Below the pieces are notes generated by a model that ran no database searches, was not told where the DNA came from, and saw nothing but the letters and a program-made list of their open reading frames with translations. 64,000 nucleotides of DNA from Pestalotiopsis fici W106-1 (Eukaryota > Ascomycota > Sordariomycetes > Amphisphaeriales > Sporocadaceae). The stretch lies in the NCBI RefSeq assembly GCF_000516985.1, contig NW_006917093.1, positions 3,038,001 through 3,102,000 of the forward strand, in the 5' to 3' direction. A program made the position numbers and the translations under genes. Shown here one piece after another: positions 33,661 through 49,993 of this stretch (its first letter is position 1; each line of letters begins with the position of its first letter).

Positions 33661-36600
33661 ATTGCTCAGGACGTTGCATGCAGCTGTTATGTATACTATC
33701 GTGGACTGCAACGAGAGATTGAAGATGACGATAGGGCTGAGCAGTGGGCTAGAAGTTTGCCGGGAGGAATCACGGGAGTAATTACTACGAATGAGAGAGG
33801 AAGAAAAAGATGATGCATGCTATGATGCCGCCAGAAGACGTCAAGTGAGAACAAGAGCGAACTGCGAAAAACGCTGGACGTGCCTACTTTACGCCGCCAG
33901 ACTGCTCCGAGCTTAAGGTGACCCGTCCCTCTTTGCATGGTGGGGCAGATTGACAGTTGCAGTCCAGACAGATGGTAGGGGTTACCGAGGCGGTACCTGG
34001 CTCGGGCAGCATGTGGGCAGCTACTTTGGCGCATAACAAGCTGCGCCAGCGCGGCCGAACAGGTACCCCAGAAGTTCTTCTTGGGGAGTTTTCGGCATGA
34101 GCGATCGACCAATGCAGGGATGACGGCGCTCTCTAGTCAGTTGTTCTTGTCGCTGCTGTTTCAATGTTTTTCCTCGTCAATGGCGGGGCATCCTTGGAAA
34201 GCCATTCTTGCTTGTCATCCACATGTGAAGGTGAAGAAGAAGTTGGCAGCCAGTCTCATCAATCTGTTCAGGGTTTGGCCAAGTATGTTTTTGTTTTTAA
34301 ATTGACTTTGGTCGAGACCTCAATGTATACACAAAACTGCAGACAGACTTGAATGAGTTGCAGTCATTGTGTGCCGTTGATAGACCTTGAGAGGTATTTT
34401 CCATCAAGAATTCGTGTCATTACGCAAGGAATAATTCATTGGCATACAGAGTTTCCAGCGACACTTGCAACTGCTCGCCTAGGGCTTGCCGGTTGAATAC
34501 CAGCCTGCCAGCCAGTTCCTATAGGCTTTTCCTCCCCATCGGATTGAAAAATAATCAATAACAACAATTGAAAACATATGGTTTCTTTCGATTGTAAATC
34601 TGCCTGCATCAATTGCCTTACCCGCATGCTTTCTATTCTGCCTGTCAGGCTGCTCTCATCTGCAACCCGAACTGGAAACGACCCGTGAGTGGGGGAATCA
34701 AGAGACAGATGATCTCACAGCCCCTCCACTTTAATCCATATCCACACACTGTATGCCGTAAGTCACAGGTCATACCCAGCAAGTCCAGTGAATTACGCCA
34801 GCCCCAGATCTCCGGATTTGGTGCCAATCGTCCCGCGCCTCGTCGCTGCTCACCAGCTGGCCCTTTTATTAACAAATCAACCATTCTATCGGATATACAA
34901 TCTCTCTTTTATGGCGTCCTTGTTGAGAAAATGGGTTGCAAGCCTACGTTAGTCATCTACTTACCCGGGAAACAAATCTATCGTGAGCCATTGGAGCAAG
35001 TAAAAACTATCAAATTCGGCAGTCGTACCCGATTTGGATACACCTCTTGCTCTCCAGAAATCACCCCGCGCTTTGACTCATGAGAACCCGCTATCAGGGA
35101 GGCGACTATCGGCCCAACGTCGCTGCGTTTGCGCGGGATTCTCGGCGGCGACCCTTTTTTTTCTGTCCTGCATATAAATAAATGTGCGATTGGTGATGGC
35201 AGCTGTCCTATCTAATCTGAATTTCGAACACCATGCCCTCAGTCAGCGCCTCTCTCCCAACATTACCTAGCATAGTAGCTACACAGGAAATAGAGCGGTG
35301 ATTACCCAAAATCCCTCCGGCAACGTAGGCAGGACAGTAGGTAATGTACCTAGCTTCCATGCAAGCCATGCCATGCGGCCTGCCGTGGCCCCGGCCCCCG
35401 GGTTCCCGGATTGGCATGAAAAATTGCAAGGATACGTACTCAATTCCTCATAGCTTCTCCAACCCAAACCATGAAAGGAAGAGACAGAAAAAGAAAAGAA
35501 AAAGCTTTTTTCTTGCCCGCTGCCAAACCGAATCAGTCATCAGCCGCTGACGGCAAGAGCGGCCGTTGCTCGGCGCATAACCATAATCTCCACCTATCCA
35601 AGAGAGACTTTGTGTCTCCATTTTGCTATACTATCAGTATATTTGCCCAATGATCGCCCGCCTTTTCCATTTTTTTCACCCGTTGAGCGCCACGGATAGA
35701 CGCGGTTCTAACCAGGAACACCAACTCTATTCGTGAGAGTTTACGCGACAAATAGGAAAATTCTTATCTCGGCCAAATTCCCGGTGCTGCTTCGAAAAGA
35801 AAAACTGAAACTGCAGCAGTTGCCCAACCAAAACGAGTACGCAGCAGGCAGTGAGTGGCATCTAGGCTGTGCGCCCATATCAGCAAGCCAGCAAGCCTAG
35901 CAACATTGAATCGTGCAGAATGCACTCTACACTAATAGTTCCGCGTGGAGGTGGATAGGTTGGACAAATTTGGGTCCTCAATGCAGCTGGCAGTGAGTCT
36001 CGAACCAAGCGGATCCATCATATCCTGCGGCGAGGTTGCAACTGCGCTGCATAAGGTAGCGATCAATGGGCTACTACTGTCACGGCTGCGTGCGTGTCTC
36101 GAACGGTCGTGGCCCATCGAAAGCCTCTCCCCCTCAGGAAAAAAAAAAAAAAAAAAAAAAAAAATTTTTTACCTAGCTACAGGTTGCATTTTATAACTAA
36201 TCCCCAGCTTTAATTCCTACGTGCTGAGTGGTCGTCCCAAAAAGGCACAAGAGGCGGTGCTGAAGGTCCAGAAGCGGACAATGAAACACGAGTTTTGACT
36301 AAGAACCCAACAGGTTTCTACCCAACATTGCTCCATTTATCATTGCCCAGCTGGTTTCCTTATTGACTGACTTGTTCGATCCCGGCGGAATTTTTTTGCA
36401 CGAAATCAATCAGCCCTAAACGTGCTTAGAATTGACGCCCGTTGGTCTAGACCATGGATATAAGTGGTGATCATGGCTGTAAGCTCAAAGCTCCACTAGC
36501 AACCCGTTCCGCTGGAAGCCCTAATAAGAGCTATGGTATTGGCAGGTATAGCTATCGTGCATAATCCCACTGTGTTGGCAAGAACACCTCAAAGCTACAA

Positions 36601-37329
36601 TGCACAACCCACTAATCAGATGATATTGAGTCGACATAGTCTCGACCAGTATGAATCGGAAATCATCCATGACGCCATCGCGAGGAGCTCAACGTCTGTC
36701 TAGAGGATGTGATCACCCCAACCACTACCATAGGACCGGATCCCTTTGTGTTTAGCCGGGCTGTCAGTGCCTACCCGACCGAGCATTCCGCCCATAGCTG
36801 AACAAGTAGTTCAAAACTTTCTACCACGTTACCGACGTCATATTCTGACTGACCCAGTACCATTTCAATAAGAATGGCTGGTTCATCTCGTACGTCAATT
36901 TGGGGTAAAGAGCCGCGTCTTCTAATTTAGTCTATAATCTAGCTAATGCCCATTCTGCTTGCGGTTCAGTACCAAGGTTGACTCCAATTCATCTCAGCGG
37001 CATCGATAGGGCTCCTAAGCTGATAGACTCCCGAGACACCATACTGAGGTCCACTTCCAGGTTTACGGAGGTGTCCCATTGATATGCAATCTTCGCGTGA
37101 GTAGCCGTAAGCAGAACATGCAAGGTAGCGTAAATGAGGATGTACAGTGATTTTCTTTTTGCCCTTTAGACCGCCGAAAAAGAGAAAGAAAAGAAAAAGG
37201 AGAAAGAAAAAGAAGAACAGGCTCTGAGTTGTGATGGTCAGAATAATCAGATTCACATGACTCAGCTCACGCAAGCACCTTTTTAGCAGTCGCCACGGTC
37301 GAGATTGATGTTGATCCATCATTTATCTT
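33661..37329. other. Gene-poor 3.7-kb flank between core kinase gene and AT-rich block
   Basis: No gene can be supported. The frame at 34613-35083 (156 codons) lacks domains and plausible codon context. A 26-nt A run lies at 36139-36164, followed by T6. A stretch at about 36640-36960 reads like fossil coding DNA with stops (fragment DQYESEIIHDAIA), but I could not identify a family. A/G-rich sequence lies at 37160-37215. Composition is ordinary until the abrupt change near 37330. Confidence 0.5.
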
Positions 37330-39079
37330 AATAAAAGAATAAGGCAATATGCGTCGGTCGGCGCGCGGAGTCTGCGTAAAAGTGCCCGGCGGTATAAGCT
37401 CGCCGTACGAATACGATTCTTTTTTGTTCCGAGCCTTCGGGCTTTATTTTCGTCGAATGCGACGCCGTATAAATTCGTGTTTTTTAGTAATAGCCTCGCT
37501 AACGTATTTTTTTATTAAAGCCCGTATATTTATAATAGCTTCGCTATAATATAATTTTTAATAATTATATTTTTGTACGGTATATATATAAGTTTATATT
37601 AGCTATTGCTAATTTAATCGGTACGGTATAAAGTATAGCGGCTTAATTTTTTTTTTATAAATATAAGGTTTTATTTTATATTAATTTGTTTAAAGCTATT
37701 TTTAATTTTTTTTTTAATTTTTATTATTTTCGATTTTTTTCCTCCCCGTTTTTTAAATATTTAATAAAACCGATTATATTTTTTATTATAAATTAAAATT
37801 ATATAAATTAATATTATTCCCCGTTAATCGAAAGCGTTTAAATTAATTGCTTTTTTTAAAATATTATATAAATATTATATATTTTTATTATAGTTTTTAC
37901 TTAAAAGCTAAATTTTTAATTTATTATAAAGGTTATTTATATAAAAACGATTAATACCCGGAAAATTATAGCTAAAATAAAAAATTTTTTTATTTTATTT
38001 ATTAAACCCGTCGTATGCTTTTATTTTTTGCCTTAAATATATTTTTTTTAAAAAGCCTAATAAAAAATAAAAAGCTTTAATTTAAAAAATATATTATTTG
38101 CTTAAATAACGCGATTTAATAAAAGGACGTAAATAAAAATAAAAATACGGTTTCGATCGATAAATTATACGATAAAAACTGCTTTTAACCGCTTTATTTC
38201 GAAATTGCGTAATAATAATACGGCTATATATACGTTTTTAAATAATAAAAAAAGGGTTATTTCGTCCGCGTATTAAATAATCCGTATTTTTTCCTAATCG
38301 GCCTAAAAAAGCCCGGTAGCGTGCGATTATATAAACCTTCCGATTAGCCCGTTTTATTATTATATAATATTGCCCCGGTTTTTTATAAAAGGCAAATTAT
38401 AATAAAAAATTAATTAAAGCGTATCGTATTAAATATATTAAAAAATAAAATTATATAAGCTAAAACGCTTTTTTTTTTAATAATATATCGTATAATTAGC
38501 TTTATATATTTTTAAGTAATATTAAAAATAAAAAAATAACGCTATTTAAATAGAAAAAAATTATTAATATCTTTAACCGAATTAAAGCGGCTTAACCTAT
38601 ATTTATATAGGCAATTTTAACGCCGATAATAATTATACTTATTTATTTATTATTAATTAATATTAAAGGTAAAAAAAAGTAATAGCAATTACGATTATAA
38701 ATTTACCTATTCCTAATTAATCCTAATATTAAGCGATTATTATATTAAATACTAATTTTAATACGGCGCTATTTATTTACGTATAATTAAATGCTATTTT
38801 TATTAAAAATTAGGTAGCGCTACGCAAAATCGCGAAAATAAATATTAATTTCGATTCGACCGGCAGCGATTCGGATATTAATATTAATATAATTAATATA
38901 TATTAAATTAGATTTATATAATATTGCTAAGCAAAATATAAAACGCCGTTGGTAACGAAAAGCTCGATTTTTTTAAGTATAAAAAAATATATATAGCGAT
39001 TAAAATTTTTTAAGCTAATTTTAGCTTTAATACGAAAAAATCTAATTATTTACGGTTTTTATTATTATTTAAACCGTTT

Positions 39080-39706
39080 ATTTTTATAAATAACGTATAA
39101 AAAGCTAGCGATATTACGGTCGAATTTATAGCTATTAGCTATAATTATTTTCGTAATAATTTTATATTTGCTTAAATTAGCGATAAATTATACGCGCTAG
39201 CAAAAGCTTTTATTAATTAATATATAAAATAACCTTTACGATCGAGCTTTTTTATATTTATTAGGCTTATTATAAAGCTTAAAATAGCGGAATTTATTAA
39301 TTCGTTTAAATTATTAAAAGATTTTATCGTCGAAAACTCGGATAATTCGGATATAGGCGAGTTTTTATTTGCTAATAAATATTTTTATAAACGGCTATAG
39401 CCCCGTTTGCCTTTTCCGGATATTCCTACGAAACGTTTAAATATAAACGCTTATAATCCTAATAATATAATATAGCCTAATAAGCGTTTACGTTTAAAAA
39501 CGATAATTACCAAATTTATTAAATAAAAAAAAAATATAAATTAAAATATTAGATTTTTAAATAATTCGATTATAATAAAACCGGCGCAAATTAAAACGTA
39601 CGAAGCCGATCCCCCGGATAAAATTACGTCGAATAATTTAGCGCTATTTAATATTAATAAAAATAAAGCTAAAAATAAAAAAGCGGCCGTATTTAATAAC
39701 GTATAA
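39080..39706 (+). pseudogene. Decayed reading frame of unknown identity upstream of the Helitron gene
   Basis: One + strand frame keeps long stretches with only a few stops, all at codons that RIP readily makes (TAA/TAG from CAA/CAG/TGG). Readable fragments include KASDITVEFIAISYNYF, KLYALAKAFIN, ENSDNSDIGEFLFAN and KTYEADPPDKITSNN, ending at a TAA at 39704-39706. The acidic/Ser-rich linker and Lys-rich tail look like real protein. I do not recognise the family. It could be a Helitron-associated accessory gene, a captured host gene fragment, or part of another transposon. Confidence 0.4.
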
Positions 39707-40389
39707 AAATTATAAAATTTTATATTAAACCGTATTATAATTATTCGATAATTAATTATATTTTATATTACGTATATATAATCCTTTATATTAAAATATT
39801 TTTATAAAATCGTTTTATTATATTTAAAATCGTATTATTATTATATTTGCTTTTATAGGCGTAATCCGCTTTTTTTTTTTTAATATTTAAAATATTAGAT
39901 TTTTATATTTAATGCAAAAAATATCGTTTTTTTACCGATTTCCGGATTAATCGATTAAACGTATAATATAATTTTTATATCGCTTATATTATAAATAATA
40001 ATAATAATTTTTAATATAATAATATCCTTAATATTAATATTTAAATATATAATAGGCGCGTATTATAATATACGAATCCGTAAATATATAAGCTAAAGCG
40101 ATTAAATTTAATAAACGATAATAATGCTTTAATATGCCAAATTATCCTAAACTCGCTAAAATAATATAAAAATAACGTTTTTATTAAAATCGGTATAACT
40201 CGGTCTAACGCCGTCTCTTTTTTTACGTATATTAATATAAACGATATTTTCCGTATTAAATTATACGATTTTAGGCCTTGCGGCGCTTTTATTTGCGATT
40301 TTTATAATATAAATTATTAAATAAAAAAAGGTGCTATATAATAAAATATAAAATAACCAATAAATTATTACAAAATAAGCAAAATCGAT

Positions 40390-43300
40390 TTATTATTTTT
40401 ACCGGAATTATTTATATTAATTTAAGACTTATTATGCCCGAACGGTATAATTAGGCGTTTTTTTAAAAATAATATTCGGAGTTATAACTTTATATTTGCC
40501 TTTACGTTAGGGTTTTGCAAAAAAAATTTTTTTTCGGAAACCGTCCAGGACCGAATATATTCCAAATTTATAATTTTTATTATTACGGAATCGGCCTAAT
40601 AAATATAAAACCCGGTTATATTTTTAGTTATGCTTAATTATATTTTTTTAATCCGAATAAAGCTAATTAAGCCTATATAATAAACTTTTAGTTAAATCCG
40701 ATAATATTAATTTTATTATTAAAATACCTGTATTTATATAATTTATATATTTAATCGTTTATATAAGCGAGGGAATTATTCGATAACGAATTACGACGAT
40801 TAAATAAAAACGGTTTAGCTTTTAAAAAGCTTTAAATTATTTTACGCTTTTTAATATAATTAATATTACGGAAAAAAGCGGATCGAAAAACCCAAAATTT
40901 GCTAATTATAAACGAAATTATTAGAATTATTATAAATAAAAATAATAATAATATAGTTATTCGTAAAAACCGCTAACGTAAAATCGTATTCGCATAAAAA
41001 CGCTTTAATTCGAACGGTTAAAAATAAAAATATTATTTAATAACGGTTAATTATAAATATTTAGCCTTTTTCGGTTTATAATACCTTATTATATTTTTTT
41101 ACGGCTTTAATAAATTTTAACCTAAAATATTTTTTGCAAAAACGCCCGGCCTAAAGCAATATATAACCTTCCGCGATTAATATTATTATTATTTATATAA
41201 CCGCGATTTAAACGATTTAATCCCGTTCGTATTTAATTAATTATTTTAATAATTTATTATAAACGTTTAAATAACGCAAAATTAAAATTAATTAAATTAA
41301 TTTTGTATAAATTAAGATAAAATTAATACGGATTTATACGATAACGAAAGTAATTTGGTACGACAAAACGATAATATAATAATTTTAAATATTATTTAGG
41401 TAATATTACTGGTTTTATATAAAGGCAATTTACGCTTTATATTACGGTGTTATTAAAATTTTATAGCTATTATACGCGAATTAGGCAAATTATTTAAATT
41501 TATTATTTTTACGGCAAACCTAAATTAATTTAAAATTATGCGTAAGCTAAAACCGGGCTAAACGGCTAATGATCGACTAAATTTAATTATAAAAGTTTTT
41601 TATATAAAAATTAATTAGCTTTTTTAAAATATAATTAAAGGCAAATTTTTCGGTAAATATATAAGCTATATTTAAACGATTAAATATTAAAAGCGAGGTT
41701 TACCGTATATATATTATTTATTATTTTTTAATAGCGAAAATCGGTAACGTTATTTAACCGAATCGAATATCGATTGCGTAATTTAAGCCGAGCTGCTATT
41801 AATTAATATAAATTTAAACGGACGATTATAACGAATCGTAAAATTTAATATATTTTATAAATTATATGGAAAGCATAACTTTTAAGCAATTTATATAATA
41901 TTAAAATTCCCGGATAATTTTATTTTAAATAAATTAGCTTTAGGCCGTTTAAATATATGCTATTTTAAAAAATTTCCGAAGCCTTTCGTATTTTATATAA
42001 TAATTAATAATAATAAATATTTATTATACCGCCGAAAAAATAATAGCGATTATATATATTGTAAAATATTCGAAAACGGTATATCGAAAAAAATTAAATT
42101 AGGTAATAATTAGGTTATCCCGTATAACCCCGTATTTTTTCTTAAATATAATATATATATTAATATCGAAATATGCGCTTTAATATAAGTTATAAAATAT
42201 ATTTATAAATATATTTTTAAAGGTATAAACCGTAATACCGTATTATTTTAACCGTTAACGATTAGTAATACCGAATAAAATGCTATAAGCATTATATAAC
42301 TTAAAATAATAAATAAAATTTAAAAATACCTTTTTATAAAATATTTTAATCCCGTTTAAAATATTTAGAATATTTACGGTTTTAAAATTAAATACTAAAA
42401 TCCGCCCGTTTAAAAACTAATCGTTTATTTGCCTAAAATCCGTAAATAAAATAATTATAAAAAATTAACGTTATAAGCTTTTTTTAATTATAATTAATAT
42501 TATATTAATTTACGGCAAATTTTATATTAGGATTTTTTTTATATTTATACGTTTTAAAAAAGCATTTATATATAAATACGCAAATAACGTTAAATTTATA
42601 TTATCGGCCGAATAAAATTCGTTTATCCGTTTTAAAATAAATGGTTTTATTTTAGGCTGTTATTTAATAAAATATCCGGTTTAATTTCGTTCGAGTTTTT
42701 ATAAACCGTTAATAATAAAATTTAGCTTAGCTTTAAATCTGCCTATTTTGTATTAAAATTTTTTTAAAATAATTAATATTAGTCGAAATTATTCGCGGAA
42801 TAAAAAGAATTATTATTAGTTTTTTAATTCCGTAAACTTTTTGCGTTTGCTATCGCGAAAAAAAATATAATCGACGTAATAGCTTTATAAAACGAGTTTA
42901 AATCGCTTTTATGCGATAATTTATTATACCGTTTAAATATAATTATAAAAAATTAGGTTTTAATAGGTTTGGAATTTCCCGAATTTAATTTCGGTTTTTT
43001 TAAAATTTAATAAATTTTAGCTTTGCACGGTATATCGATAAATAATACAAAATTACCTATTCTAATATATAATTAGGCGATTCGGTATAATAATTTATTT
43101 TTTAAAATTTAACTAAATTACGATATAAAAGCTAAAAGAAAATTATATAAATTAATTTATTATTAGCTTAACCCGGGATAATTCGCAGTTTATAATAAAA
43201 TTACGGAAGCGATTGATGCGGTATAAACCGGTATATTATTTTTTATATAAAACGGCGCCGGGATTAGGAAAACCTTTTTATATAAAGCAATTTATTACCG

Positions 43301-44480
43301 ATATCGCGCGCAAAAAAAAAATCGTAATTTATATAGCTTTATCCGGAATCGTAGTATTTTTATTATTTTTAGGCTAAATAATATATTTTAAATTTCGAAT
43401 CCTTATTCTGTATAATCCGAAAGCAAAGCCGAAAATACCGGATTTTTTAATAAATTTATTTAGCCGCACCTATTTAATTATTTAAAATAAAATTATTTTA
43501 TAAACTAAAAATTATTTCGAATATATAAATTATATATTTTAAAACGTATTTTAACAAAATAAACGATTTAACGGTATTCTTATTTTATTTAAAGGCGATT
43601 TTGCTTAAATCCTACCGGTATTAAAGGGTATAAAATTAAAAAATATTATATAAAATTATTTAAAGCACTTTTATTTTTAAAAATATTTGCGTAGGTTTAA
43701 ATTAATTTAAAATATACGGCTTAAATTAATAAATAAATAAAACTAAAAATATATAAAATAATTTTATAAGCTTTTATACGATTTAATTTTGCGCGGATTC
43801 GTAATTATTCTAAATAAAATCCGATTAATCCGAATAATTAAAGCTTTAGCCTAAATAATTTATTTTACGATCGAATTATAGTAATTAAAACTATTTTTTT
43901 TTCGAATTTCGATATATTTTATTACCGAAAAATAATACCGTATAAGCATTTAATATATTTGTATTCGAACGCTATAAAGGTAAAATTTACAAATATATTT
44001 TTATAAACTAAATCGATAATATCTTATAAATAAACGATAATATACCATTAATAAAATATTTATATAAAATAAACCTAGCAAATCTTCTTAATTACGAATT
44101 ATAATTATATTTCGGAATCCCGGTATTATTATTACGTAATTAAATACTAAAAAAAGGTTTATATAATAGCACGAAAATAATTATATTAAAATTAGGCCGT
44201 ATAAAAATAAAAATAAAAATCCTTAAAGGTTTATTTAATAAAAACGAAAAACTAATCCCGAAAATAAGGTTATTTTTAAAAAAAAGCTATAATAGCCATA
44301 AATAAAATTGATATTAATTGCTTTTAAAAATATATTTTAGTATAATTATATATAAAGCTTAAAAATAATCGTTTTAGCATATTAGAATTAATTTAGAATA
44401 AAACGTTTTTATATATAAATAATTTTATATAGCGATATTTCGAATAACGGATATACGAAACTTAATAATATTAATTCCGG
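40390..44480 (+). pseudogene. RIP-mutated Helitron replicase-helicase (Rep-Hel)
   Basis: Read on the + strand with RIP-type changes allowed, Helitron landmarks occur in the correct order. These are the N-domain segment NIRSYNFIFAFTL (about 40466-40506); F-I-x-F-T-A-N followed by M-R-x-L-x-P-G (41499-41560); the HUH region as RGLPYIYYLLFF, where both metal-binding His codons now read TAT (41694-41730); and YRRKN...VIPYNPVF (about 42020-42140). The PIF1-like helicase follows: Walker A region APGLGK at about 43255, KKIVIYIALSGI for the 'ASSGIAA' helix, LII-stop-NK for the Walker B 'LIIWDE', KGDFA for 'GGDF' (about 43590), FGIPVLLLRN (about 44110) and the C-terminal FYIAIFRITDIRN (about 44430). 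Many Gln and Trp codons are stops. The frame changes at least twice, so indels are present too. Non-functional; it would have encoded rolling-circle transposition. Confidence 0.85.
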
Positions 44481-46323
44481 AAAATAAAAAAAAAGGATTA
44501 AATATTATATAGCCTAAAATATTAATTAAATAAAATTTAAAAATACCGTATAATATTAATAATTTTAATTCGATTATTTAAAGGCGCTAAATATAATTAT
44601 ATTAAATTATAATTAATAATATATATATATATAAAATATTACGGATTTATATAAATTTTAATAATAAAATTATTATTTTTTAATCGGGCTGGTATTAAAC
44701 TAAAGGCCGGATTAGGGTATAGGCGTATAAATCCGTATAAATACGTACGTGCCTAATTAAAATAATTTAAACGCGTAAAAAAGCGAATAAATTAATACGA
44801 AGCTATATTAATTATTATTATTATTACCGTTATTATTTTTATTTTTAAATTTAAATTTTTTAGCTTTAGTATTTATTATAAATGCTAAAACGAAAATTAA
44901 TTAAATTTATATAATTTTAAATAAAAATGTTTATTTATAATACGGAATTAATTAAACGTAATATTAAATAAAAATTTTTTATAATTTTTAAATATAATTT
45001 TACCCGGGAGTTTACCGGGGGTATTAAATATAAATAAATTATTATTATTTTCGTATAAATATTAGCAAATATATACGAAATTATATAAAAAAAAAACCTA
45101 TTAGCGCAATTAAAAAAATAAAAAATTATAATTTAAATATAATTAATATAATAAATTTTATAATATAAATTAAAAATTAATAAATTAGTATAATTTTATA
45201 TTAAAAAATATAAAACCGAATTTATTAATATAATATTCGAAAATGCTATTGCTTTTAAAATAAAAATTATTAGTAACCGTTATAAAATATTTCGTATATA
45301 TAAAAATTTATACGGTGCCGTATATATATAATAAAGCTTAAATTAAATTTTGCTAACGCTTAAAATTAATTTTGCGTAAAGCTAAAAAATTATTATCCTA
45401 TTTAGTTTTTAATATAATTACGCGTAAAATAAAATAATTTTATATAAATTAATATAATATAACGCAATTAAATTTAAATTAATATAAATTTTAATAAAAA
45501 AAATATTTAATTAATTATATTAATCGGGGATATACGAGCTTTATTATAAACGTATTTGGTTAATTTAGGGTTAATAAAAGGAATAATTTTAAAAAATACG
45601 ATATTTTTTCTAATTTATATAGCGTTATTCGGAATCGTAAAAAATTATTATTTTCGAGCTAACCCGAATTATTATAATCGGGGTCGACCGAATTTATATA
45701 AACGTAAATAATTTTTTTAAAACTTTTGCTAGATTTTTTAATAATTTTAGTGGTATTGCTTAAAATTATATAAAATCGTATACGTTTTACCGGAAAAACG
45801 GAAAAATCGGAAAGATCCGGCTTATTACCGCCCGGGTTAGGCAAAGCGGTGCCGGGTATAATCGGATTTATACGAAAATAAATAAAACGGGAAAAAAAAA
45901 ACGAATTAGCGTAAACGCTAATTAAAAAAAAATAAATTTAAACGAATTAATATAAACGTAATTTTTTAACCTTAAATTTAAATAAATTAAAATATAAAAA
46001 TCGTAATATTTAATATAAAATTTTTATAAAAATTACGTTTTTCGTATAAATTCGTACGATTAATTTAATAAAAAATAATAAAATACTTATATATAATTTA
46101 ATAAAAAAAAAAAATTTCCGAAATTACGGAAAGGAACCCCTGCTTAAATAAAAAAAAAATAATTCTGCCGCTATTTTAAGAAGGCGGTATACGGTAGCAG
46201 GCTATTTTGCGCCCGCCCTACCGAGTAATAAAAGGTTAAGCTAATAGGCCACGATTTTTTTTTTATGCTATATAATTATATAAAATATAATGCTTTTATT
46301 TATTATTATGCTACTAGAGTGAA

Positions 46324-46344
46324 GCTTCGGCCGAAGGCCGAAGC
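46324..46344. repeat. Perfect 9-bp-stem hairpin at the right edge of the AT-rich block
   Basis: The arms gcttcggcc and ggccgaagc are perfect inverted repeats with a GAA loop. They sit exactly where composition returns to normal and 14 nt beyond the stop codon (46359-46361, minus strand) of the NRPS-like gene. Helitrons carry a short GC-rich hairpin just inside their 3' end; on the + strand this is where the 3' end of the Rep-Hel element would be expected. A canonical CTRR terminus is not seen directly after it. It could instead serve as a terminator-like structure for the neighbouring gene. Confidence 0.55.
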
Positions 46345-46358
46345 GTAATCTCGTTTTA

Positions 46359-49300
46359 TCAAAATCCCCACTGCTTACACCACTGCTTCATAAGATCAGG
46401 CGTGATAGACTGCGGTTGGCGCATGGTTGGACTTTGGGCCTCTGTTCGCTGCGTGGCGAAACGGGGAGACGGATGCCCTGATTCCATCGCAGCGACCATA
46501 CCACGGTACGTGTCGAGTAGTTTGATGCCTGGATTCAGGTCAATTTCCGTAGAGCTTTGCCCGCTTTCTTCCAGCCTGCGTGTCCATTCCTTGAAACTTA
46601 TAAGCTCGCGAATGCGACGAGAACCATAATAGTCCTTGATAGCTGCAGCGAGGGAATCCCACGTGGTCCGATGGGGGTTGACACCGTGGTAATAACCACT
46701 TATGTCTGCCGGATCCATCAGTTGTGTAATTCCGGCAAGTTCCAACACCAGAGCGGCAATCTTCTCGACTGGTGTCCAATCGATATCCGAAGCATTGTCC
46801 AGGTCAGAAGGCAGGGCTCCAAGATACAAGCTGCTGGCAATGAGGCTCGGTATCCATTCGTGCTTATTCCACGTTCCAGTCCCTTTCTCTGGGCCTGCGA
46901 TTTGACCAACACGAAGCACGGCTGCAGGAAAGTCGCCTGATGCCGCCGCGGCCTATTCATCAAAGGGTGTCAGTGATTGCTCAATTCGGGTCGTCAAGAT
47001 ACCAAAGCCATACTCCTAATTATACATCAATACGGAAGAAATGGCAACGATTACTAACCTCAAGAATCAGGCTTCCAACCATTTTGCTTCGACCATATCC
47101 CGCGGCCGCAAGACTCGTGTCAGTAAGTCGGCTTTCCGGAATCGGTCCATTGGTAGAATCCCATCTGCTTGCAGTACCAATGGACGATATGAATATGACT
47201 GCTACACGCTTGTTGGCCTGTGTCGCAAAATCGGCCACATTGCGCACGCCGCGGAGATGTGGCTCAAAAGATTCCAGTGGAATATTGAAATTGACAGGCC
47301 AAGCATTGTGAATCCATCGATCGGCATTGTGGAGGAGATCGCGAAGCACATCGCTTGGCAACCCAAAGCCTGGTTTGGATATATCAGCATGATGAAAGCT
47401 GGACTTTTCGGTAAAGTTGGAGCTGAGGCCGCGTTCTTTCATGCCCTGACGTTGTTGCTCCAATCCACCATCTTTGGCACGATTGAGACACACAATTCTC
47501 GATACTTGAGGGCTTCGGATCAGCAAATCCAGTAAGTAGGAACCGAGTTGGCCAGTGGAGCCGGTTAGAATGATTGTCTGAGCCTGATGGTATCCTTCGG
47601 GTCGATTTGGCTTCGATGAAGTGAAGTCCTTTGTGTATTTCTCAGTAAGCTGTTTCATCAATTGCTGCTGGACATCATCATCTTCAAATGCAAGACTAGC
47701 ATCATCATCATGAATTACTAGGCCCCGTATGTAGCGTCCAAGCCGGAAAGGCGTAGGATTACTATAGATGGTCTTTGGGAATAGCTTCTCGTCTATTGCG
47801 TGATGCCCGAGTTGGTGGACGCTCGCTTGCAGAAGCTTGGTGGCGTTGATCACTTGAAGTGAATCGACCCCTGAAATACATCAGTCTATTTTCAGATACA
47901 ACAGGTGAGGTCTGAAAGGCTGCTGATGACCAGCTCTCAAGAACAGCTTACCAAAGGCAAAAAGGTCGCTGTCTAAGTCTGGCAGAGAAACTCCCAGATT
48001 GGACCTGAACAAGCCTAGGACAGACTCGGCAGCCGCTTGATCTGAAGATAGATCCAACGGAGCAACATCCTCGCTGGAAATGACGCGATCTTGCTCGTAT
48101 AATTGGCCAATCTCCGCTTCGAAAAGCTTCAGGGCTGCGGCACGCTGGATGGTGCCTTTCCCAGCACGCGGGAACGTCTTTGTAGGATCAGTCAAGGCAA
48201 TCATGTGCCGCGCGATACGCCCATGGGCAACAGTGTCTTCATTAGCCTGGGAGACGAGCGACCACACGCTGTCCATCAAGGCCACTTTCTTTTCTTCGCT
48301 CTCGGGGGGTGACACGGGTTCAATGAGCAGACCAGCTTGGAATCGACCAGAGCCCACCACCAGTGCACCTTGAATCTGAGGATGCACCGTTACTACCTCC
48401 TCAATTGTCACAGGATTGAGCTTTTCGCCGTTGGAGAAAACGATAATATCGTCAGCCCGACCGTAGTATAGCCAATGATCTGCCAAAGTTGGGTGCGGCG
48501 TGAACAGATCATGGGTGTCGTACTCATTCTTGTCTGGAAATGTGTAGAAAACTCCCTGAAGACCAGGCTCTGCTCCCTGGCGCTTGATGACAAGCTTATA
48601 AGCGCCATCAGTATCACTTTTACGCCAATCTGCTCCCATAATGTCGGCGGGAATAATAAAGTACCGCCATAGCTCCGGCCGGGATTGGAAATAGAGGGGA
48701 TACGGCGAAAATCTGTTGTTGTCAGCAAAAGGAGCAGACTTATGAGGATAAGGTACCTACTCCGTCGATGAGATTGCATTCATCAGACGAAGACCTTCTT
48801 GAATAAGCTTTCTGCCAACCTCATTCGCAAGATTTCCTGGTTGGTTAATCGTGAGTTTGCGTTTCTGAATGTGGTGGGTGGTTGTGTTTTACCTGCACCA
48901 AAGACAACTATTTTGAGTTTCTTCAGAGCCCTCACGCAGTCGTCGTCTTGGCTCATTGCACTCAGGATAGATGGTGGAAGAATAGCAATGTCAACGTCCA
49001 AACGGTCAATTGACTCTGCCATGAGACCTGCCGACATTGGACGGTCCACACCAAACGCAAGTGGCCGATCCCAGTATAAACCAAGGTGGATAGACGAGAG
49101 GAGCCCGGCTGCATGAAACAATGGCACTGTCCAATTGATTGTTAGATTTCCATTAATACTGAATATATTGTAGAAATACTTGCTGGGAACGAAATGTCTC
49201 CTCGACTGTTCTGTCCACCCACGCATCATAAGGACAGTCCCATGTTTTGGCGGCAGATTGTGCATTGCATCTCCAGCAGCCACCATTCCCACCCGAGCTA

Positions 49301-49993
49301 CAACAGGCTTAGGCAACCCTGTGCTGCCACTGGTATGCAGTACGACGACAGGATCCATTTTAGCCTCTTGGAACGTCTTATCGTATGGAAAGTGAGGCCC
49401 ACTACTCAGCAACATGGTATCCAATGGTTCAACTTCCATTGTCATCATTGGGTAGTCATTTAGCCACGGCTGCACCATTGCATGTGAATTCTGGGGATAT
49501 GCGATGATTCTACAATCAGTCTGTTTGAATAAATGAATCTGGCCCTGGTGCGAGTTTCTCGGCGATATGAAGAATGCCTTGGCCCAAAGTCAGTTCCAGG
49601 TCCTCACAGTAGTATGGGACGGTTACTCACCTTGTAGCCCGCTTTAATGGCAGCCACCATCATCACCTGGCCAACAATCAACGACAAAGTACCTCTAAAT
49701 ATCGTTTTATGCTTACTCACTAGGTAGCGCACATCATTTGGGCCGATGTATGCAATCGTAGGAAATGTTCCCTGCGTTGGCTGCCCAAACTGGTCGATAA
49801 TTCGATACGCAACATGATTGATAGCAGTCGCATATGCGCTGGATGAAAGCACTTTCCAGCCATCGTTGGGATCACTTGAATTGGGGATCTGGAAGACCTC
49901 TTTGAGAGGATGATTGTGTGCCCATTCATCAATTATGGTAGGTAGCAGTCTCTCGCCAAATGGCGTCGGCTTGGCATCTTTGGAGTCCAACAT
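46359..49993 (-). CDS. NRPS-like carboxylic acid reductase, A-T-R architecture
   Basis: Seven exons: 49993-49721, 49666-49631, 49577-48893, 48836-48761, 48712-47952, 47870-47059, 46952-46359; 1,078 residues. The adenylation domain has GPNDVRYLV, the A3 loop TSGSTGLPK (~185-193), SSTE for the A5 region, YYGRADDIIVFSNGEKL (A7-A8) and the A10 lysine in GKGTIQR. The carrier domain has the phosphopantetheine Ser614 in FGVDSLQV. The reductase domain has the NADPH motif TGSTGQLGS (~713-721) and the catalytic Tyr869/Lys873 pair in GYGRSKMV. Such enzymes activate a carboxylic acid, load it on the carrier and release it as aldehyde or alcohol. The length equals typical fungal A-T-R reductases; there is no condensation domain. 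The substrate cannot be read here. The gene ends beside a RIP-mutated Helitron, so its expression may be affected. Confidence 0.88.

Follow-up and report, generated by a model that had tools for sequence, protein, structure and literature searches.

The 64,000-nucleotide stretch of the Pestalotiopsis fici W106-1 genome analyzed here (the window; C3:3038001-3102000) contains a block in which the GC content falls to 0.20 (37501-46200) from 0.46-0.51 in the adjoining kilobases, and the question was which element lies in this block and what process mutated it. P. fici W106-1 is a tea endophyte belonging to the Sordariomycetes, and RIPCAL indices published for it point to heavy RIP, according to excerpts of its genome paper (PMC4320822). 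The reading favored here, with a probability of about 0.92, is that an autonomous-type Helitron (Rep-PIF1, 9.0 kb) was copied and that both copies were then mutated by RIP.

The original prediction had placed a Helitron Rep-Hel, readable on the forward strand through heavy RIP, in the central part of the block. The coding landmarks located there were as follows (window coordinates).

40390..44480, + strand: Rep-Hel coding remnant, interval as first given (Pfam and PDB matches)
41184..41720, + strand: Helitron_like_N (Rep) domain (Pfam profile, E 1.4e-16), with 2 TAG and 14 TAA inside
41706..41714, + strand: HUH site with both His codons now TAT (Tyr), TAT-ATA-TAT (aligned with Helraiser HAH)
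42198..42212, + strand: two kept tyrosines (TAT, TAT) opposite Helraiser residues 727 and 731 (Helraiser alignment)
43207..43785, + strand: PIF1 helicase domain (Pfam profile, E 3.7e-20), with 12 TAA inside
44057..44194, + strand: Pif1 2B domain (Pif1_2B; Pfam E 2.6e-5, 24.3 bits, barely over the cut-off of 23.9)
44423..44461, + strand: C-terminal helicase motif FYIAIFRITDIRN (sequence reading)

For the Pfam scan, 18 frame translations from both strands of 37321-46354 were used with stops read as X. Matches were obtained in 3 of the 18 translations, all on the + strand inside 40390..44480, and the remaining 15 were without a match; Helitron_like_N, PIF1 and Pif1_2B appeared in this order, and no better LTR or LINE match emerged. 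When the Rep frame was compared with PDB sequences, Helraiser (7lcc) was the sole match at E ≤ 1 (E 3.9e-48, residues 258-972 of the X-read frame), with Helraiser HAH (chain residues 593-595 by count) opposite Tyr-Ile-Tyr of the window copy. Tyr727 and Tyr731 of Helraiser, opposite the two kept tyrosines, are catalytic residues. The order of the Helitron superfamily, Rep (HUH) followed by a PIF1-type helicase, is present, with the helicase part in other frames than Rep. From the Helraiser alignment and the ordered Pfam matches, it follows that the landmarks are real and in order. The predicted change of the HUH His codons to TAT and the C-terminal motif were thus confirmed, as was the GGDF-type motif, which reads KGDF at about 43591. 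The set does lie on a single strand as predicted, yet it is spread over three reading frames. The frame changes are near two one-base homopolymer length differences from the partner copy described below (about 43.3 and 43.9 kb), which may have arisen by late mutation or by sequencing error. Intact HUH histidines are missing from the window copy, both being Tyr, and this loss argues against activity but not against Helitron ancestry.

The predicted interval corresponds to the coding core, whereas the real unit is more than twice as long. Its extent and termini were determined as follows.

37326..46353, + strand: whole RIPed Helitron, 9,028 bp, GC 0.209 (homology ends with the copy on C8, shared termini)
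37326..37337, + strand: 5′ terminus TCTTAATAAAAG, with A at 37325 before it (same in the C8 copy)
37326..37492, + strand: 5′ end stretch with near-normal GC (related short fragment at C6:1675375-1675557)
46324..46344, + strand: 3′ hairpin GCTTCGGCC-GAA-GGCCGAAGC (hairpin scan)
46350..46353, + strand: 3′ end CTCG, with T at 46354 next (same in the C8 copy)

The hairpin was the only one in 37301-46400 to be returned by a scan that required a perfectly paired stem of 7 bp or longer, a loop of 2-6 nt and a stem GC of 50% or higher. It is followed by GTAAT, CTCG and then T, so that the stem stops 9 nt short of the terminus, slightly closer to the end than the about 10-12 nt quoted for the Helitron1 3′ hairpin in an excerpt of PMC5148889. 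The canonical 5′ TC of Helitron1 is present. The canonical 3′ CTRR is absent, both copies ending in CTCG, which is a counterpoint to the favored reading; because C-to-T mutation cannot make C, this departure is older than RIP. As judged from the flanking letters, insertion appears to have taken place between A and T at both copies (2 of 2), with no flank repeat seen, as in the Helitron superfamily. At the 5′ end, where Helitron2 elements also have a hairpin, no stem reached 7 bp, and one 5-bp stem is present within the first 210 bp. The ends look Helitron1-like apart from CTCG. GC was 0.469 over 37326-37500 and 0.359 over 46201-46353, versus 0.201 between them, and RIP appears weaker at the termini than in the body. 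A cargo gene was sought in 37.3-40.4 and 44.4-46.35 kb (12 translations), where even a threshold of E 1 gave no Pfam match; RIP may hide one.

The fragment at C6:1675375-1675557 is an isolated relative of the 5′ end with normal GC. It comprises 167 bp of the element and begins with a terminus like TCTTAATAAAAG with small differences; as in the C8 copy, A precedes it. When further element sequence behind this fragment was sought with R/Y coding, the score was no better than for shuffles. RIP is thought to need a longer duplication than these 167 bp offer.

A DNA search of the genome (51.7 Mb, 20 contigs) yielded, apart from the window itself, one long relative at C8:1953789-1962595 (- strand, 89%), the other 22 matches listed being short. 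The alignment with this copy runs over 37321-46307; in its 8,980 aligned columns the copies differ by 963 transitions and 8 transversions, and a further 20 columns are gaps. The small number of transversions indicates that both copies were nearly identical before C-to-T mutation, and the near-identical second copy implied by the original prediction was thereby identified. The last 59 bp (46296-46354) recur about 5.25 kb further on with 97% identity, so another AT-rich insert splits the C8 copy close to its 3′ end. This insert (about 5.25 kb; C8 about 1948.5-1953.8 kb) is LTR-element-like, its edges sharing sequence by eye, and one edge is less mutated than the other. When 14 kb of the window (35001-49000) was compared with 18 kb round the C8 copy, long homology began 5 bp upstream of the 5′ TC and stopped 1 bp past the 3′ CTCG; the flanks beyond differ.

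The composite RIP index was 0.66-0.95 in the 16 one-kb windows fully within 37501-46000, 0.31 and 0.55 in the windows at the two edges, and from -0.22 down to -1.09 in six flanking windows, so the heavy RIP claimed at the outset was borne out by the sliding-window check proposed for it. Within 37700-46200, CpA and TpG were at 0.15 and 0.23 of expectation and TpA was at 1.15, versus 1.12-1.24 (CpA, TpG) and 0.64-0.68 (TpA) in the flanks, a pattern characteristic of RIP, as is the near transition-only divergence between the copies. Lost cytosines were counted at sites where either copy still has C, with both strands pooled and sites lost in both invisible, and amounted to 162 of 250 at CpA, 355 of 661 at CpT, 144 of 491 at CpC and 302 of 1,054 at CpG. 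Among these informative sites CpA ranked first (65%) with CpT near behind (54%). The loss, counted with doubly mutated sites invisible, is less CpA-specific than the classical pattern given in the available part of the P. fici genome paper (PMC4320822), which counts against the favored reading.

Rep loci were then compared over the whole genome. At least ten were found, of which nine contain stops, with GC of 0.20-0.26 over the fetched stretch, and one is open, with GC of 0.47. The mutated loci were grouped into subfamilies by the transversion fraction measured, for each pair, over the stretch that aligned best. Subfamily A consists of the window and C8 copies (5 transversions in 3,536 columns), subfamily B of four copies on C10, C3 (a second locus), C5 and C6 (transversion fraction 0.0005-0.0040), and subfamily C of three copies on C12, C2 and C4 (0.0006-0.0025). 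Between subfamilies the fraction was 0.057-0.064 for B versus C and 0.10-0.17 for A versus either, on stretches of 79-344 columns. A near-identical partner was present for all nine mutated Rep loci, the transversion fraction over the best aligned stretch never exceeding 0.004. The unmutated frame on C13, one of the ten loci, is without a full-length partner: apart from its own locus, it matched three short pieces (49-275 bp) of the genome. Partners for nine of nine mutated loci, with the C13 frame alone open, are what the duplication rule of RIP predicts; for Rep-bearing Helitron loci, RIP was found on duplicated and not on single-copy DNA. The family thus constitutes a compact within-genome test of that rule on a rolling-circle transposon.

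The C13 locus (C13:96688-100560) carries an open frame of 1,290 aa that has DUF6570 and Helitron_like_N domains and in which the PHVH site is intact. No Pfam match was obtained in the three + frames of the next 2.4 kb, and the frame is either a Helitron that was truncated or a host gene of Helitron origin. It is flanked on each side by low-GC sequence (0.27-0.33 and 0.25), and the C13 neighborhood may therefore not be wholly RIP-free, a further point against the favored reading. The C4 and C6 copies had been taken as partnerless (nearest fractions 0.069 and 0.12); this was rejected, since high-copy repeats are nested in both loci, and on the best aligned stretch their transversion fractions were 0.0018-0.0025 and 0.0005-0.0028, respectively. 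The C4 copy is interrupted by a repeat of about 0.63 kb (about 4384.3-4384.9 kb) and the C6 copy by one of at least 1.37 kb (from about 685.1 kb); each of these repeats occurs in more than 30 other places (40 of 131-133 candidates scored). Subfamilies B and C end at the 3′ side in CTAG followed by T (C10 and C5 for B; C2 for C, where the end was read by likeness to B, the two fetched subfamily C regions sharing only 66 bp). The apparent 5′ end of subfamily B begins TCTATAG, but the bases found in front of it are C and T, which leaves the A|T rule unconfirmed for B.

In a search for DNA methylases, four loci were detected: a DIM-2-like gene on C10 with BAH and methylase domains, RID-like genes on C5 and C7, and one further locus on C4. 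The RID-like gene on C5 is a single 739-aa frame, and among the best 120 of its 334 homologues, three were named 'RIP defective' or 'essential for RIP'. The second RID-like methyltransferase gene (C7:2921899-2922806) lies in two frames, through an intron or a frameshift. These RID-like genes carry PPCQ...EQT, an RID motif. Genes of both the RID and the DIM-2 type expected for RIP are thus present. In classical RIP, both duplicates lie in one haploid nucleus, before meiosis. A search for the mating-type alpha-box gave zero matches, but control genomes gave zero as well; the HMG-box search gave 8 matches, and four loci read by eye led to no MAT1-2 call.

Other explanations of the block were weighed against RIP of a transposed Helitron. 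That it is some other RIPed transposon, LTR or LINE, with Helitron landmarks as chance readings in AT-rich DNA, draws on the many spurious short matches that low-GC sequence yields in DNA searches; with Helitron_like_N, PIF1 and Pif1_2B as the sole Pfam matches in the 18 translations and Helraiser as the only PDB match of the Rep frame, it was rejected and can be regarded as refuted for practical purposes. Both copies might also derive from a host region that carried a single old Helitron and underwent segmental duplication, and both element ends are indeed kept in both copies. No homology was found beyond 37321 or 46354 in the comparison of 14 kb with 18 kb, however, and flanks that differ between copies speak for transposition, so this origin is very improbable.

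The C-to-T load could also have arisen in a genuine Helitron by mitotic, DIM-2-dependent deamination in methylated heterochromatin instead of premeiotic RIP. The presence of the DIM-2-like gene and the loss of C before T and G agree with this, and in Zymoseptoria, Dim2 promotes C-to-T mutation at CpA in mitosis, as described in excerpts of PMC8016269. Against it stand the ratio of 963 transitions to 8 transversions, by which C-to-T changes far outran ordinary divergence, the partners of all nine mutated loci beside an unmutated single-copy frame, and the RID-like genes, none of which fixes the timing, and we consider the mitotic route unlikely. RIP is associated with sexual reproduction, according to a passage of PMC7882544. 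The claim that two copies had met in a sexual cycle is supported as to the second copy, and outruns the data as to the cycle: with mitotic C-to-T mutation known elsewhere (part of PMC8016269) and uninformative alpha-box controls, a past sexual cycle joining both copies is a reasonable and plausible supposition.

Under RIP of a transposed Helitron, rolling-circle transposition would have made a further copy of the 9.0-kb element, and the near-identical copies on C3 and C8 would have been recognized as a duplication and both mutated. C-to-T changes on either strand, most at CpA and CpT, would have turned both HUH His codons of the window copy into Tyr and filled the frames with stops, probably by premeiotic RIP through the RID/DIM-2 pathway, and the copies would now be dead. 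The identity of the element, its boundaries, its partner, the transition-only divergence and the same pattern in other Helitron subfamilies were directly established.

The bat Helitron Helraiser carries a 3′ hairpin near its end. The P. fici copy resembles Helraiser (PDB 7lcc) in this hairpin, in the Rep-Hel order and in keeping both tyrosines, and differs in having Tyr for both HUH His, stops throughout and 3′ CTCG instead of CTRR. Helitrons were said in the original prediction to be rarely described as RIP targets. RIPed Helitrons have, however, been published: RIP hallmarks were reported for FoHeli1 of Fusarium solani by Chellapan et al. 2016 (PMC5148889, in part), and RIP-like footprints were measured on Helitrons in Microbotryum, in which Copia, Ty3 and Helitron elements are less affected by RIP than other elements, as stated in an excerpt of PMC10502011. 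FoHeli1 is likewise a fungal Rep-Hel Helitron with a RIP signature; FoHelis, however, carry terminal inverted repeats that are asymmetric and ends of the Helitron2 type by the same excerpts, whereas in P. fici the scan returned a hairpin at the 3′ end only. In another ascomycete, Mycosphaerella graminicola, Helitron families 98 and 765 have a 3′ hairpin and CTRR, to which the CTAG end of P. fici subfamilies B and C corresponds, and the repeat estimates for that species covered families of at least 10 members, compared with two to four Rep-bearing copies per subfamily in P. fici (PMC4522978, excerpts). The element classes given for P. fici in its genome paper are LTR, LINE, MITE, TIR and unknown, 'Helitron' being absent from the available main text (PMC4320822). 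With FoHeli1 as precedent, the kind is known, and the P. fici family is a clear, fairly ordinary further case of RIPed Helitrons; no report of a Helitron in Pestalotiopsis fici was found in the open-licence papers searched.

A more speculative extension, which we regard as doubtful, is that RIP halts each P. fici Helitron subfamily once two to four copies exist, yet leaves the extreme ends untouched. With the 3′ hairpin and the first ~175 bp preserved as intact cis signals, dead copies could then be mobilized in trans by any active Helitron. If this were true, RIP would turn autonomous Helitrons into non-autonomous ones, not simply end them.

The 3′ end of the Helitron is 5 bp from the stop codon of an adjoining gene.

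46359..46919, - strand: last ORF of an adenylation-reductase (carboxylic acid reductase-like) host gene (aligned to the last residue of 8aep)
46359-49478, - strand: adenylation-reductase gene (ORFs match AMP-binding, AMP-binding_C_3 and NAD_binding_4)

GC was 0.51 over 46354-47353, and one of the seven homologues found was named carboxylic acid reductase. Judged by these matches, it is apparently a carboxylic acid reductase-like gene whose C-terminus is complete and whose GC is normal. An enzyme of the same class has been studied in P. fici, the likeness being at class level (PMC9605436, in part).
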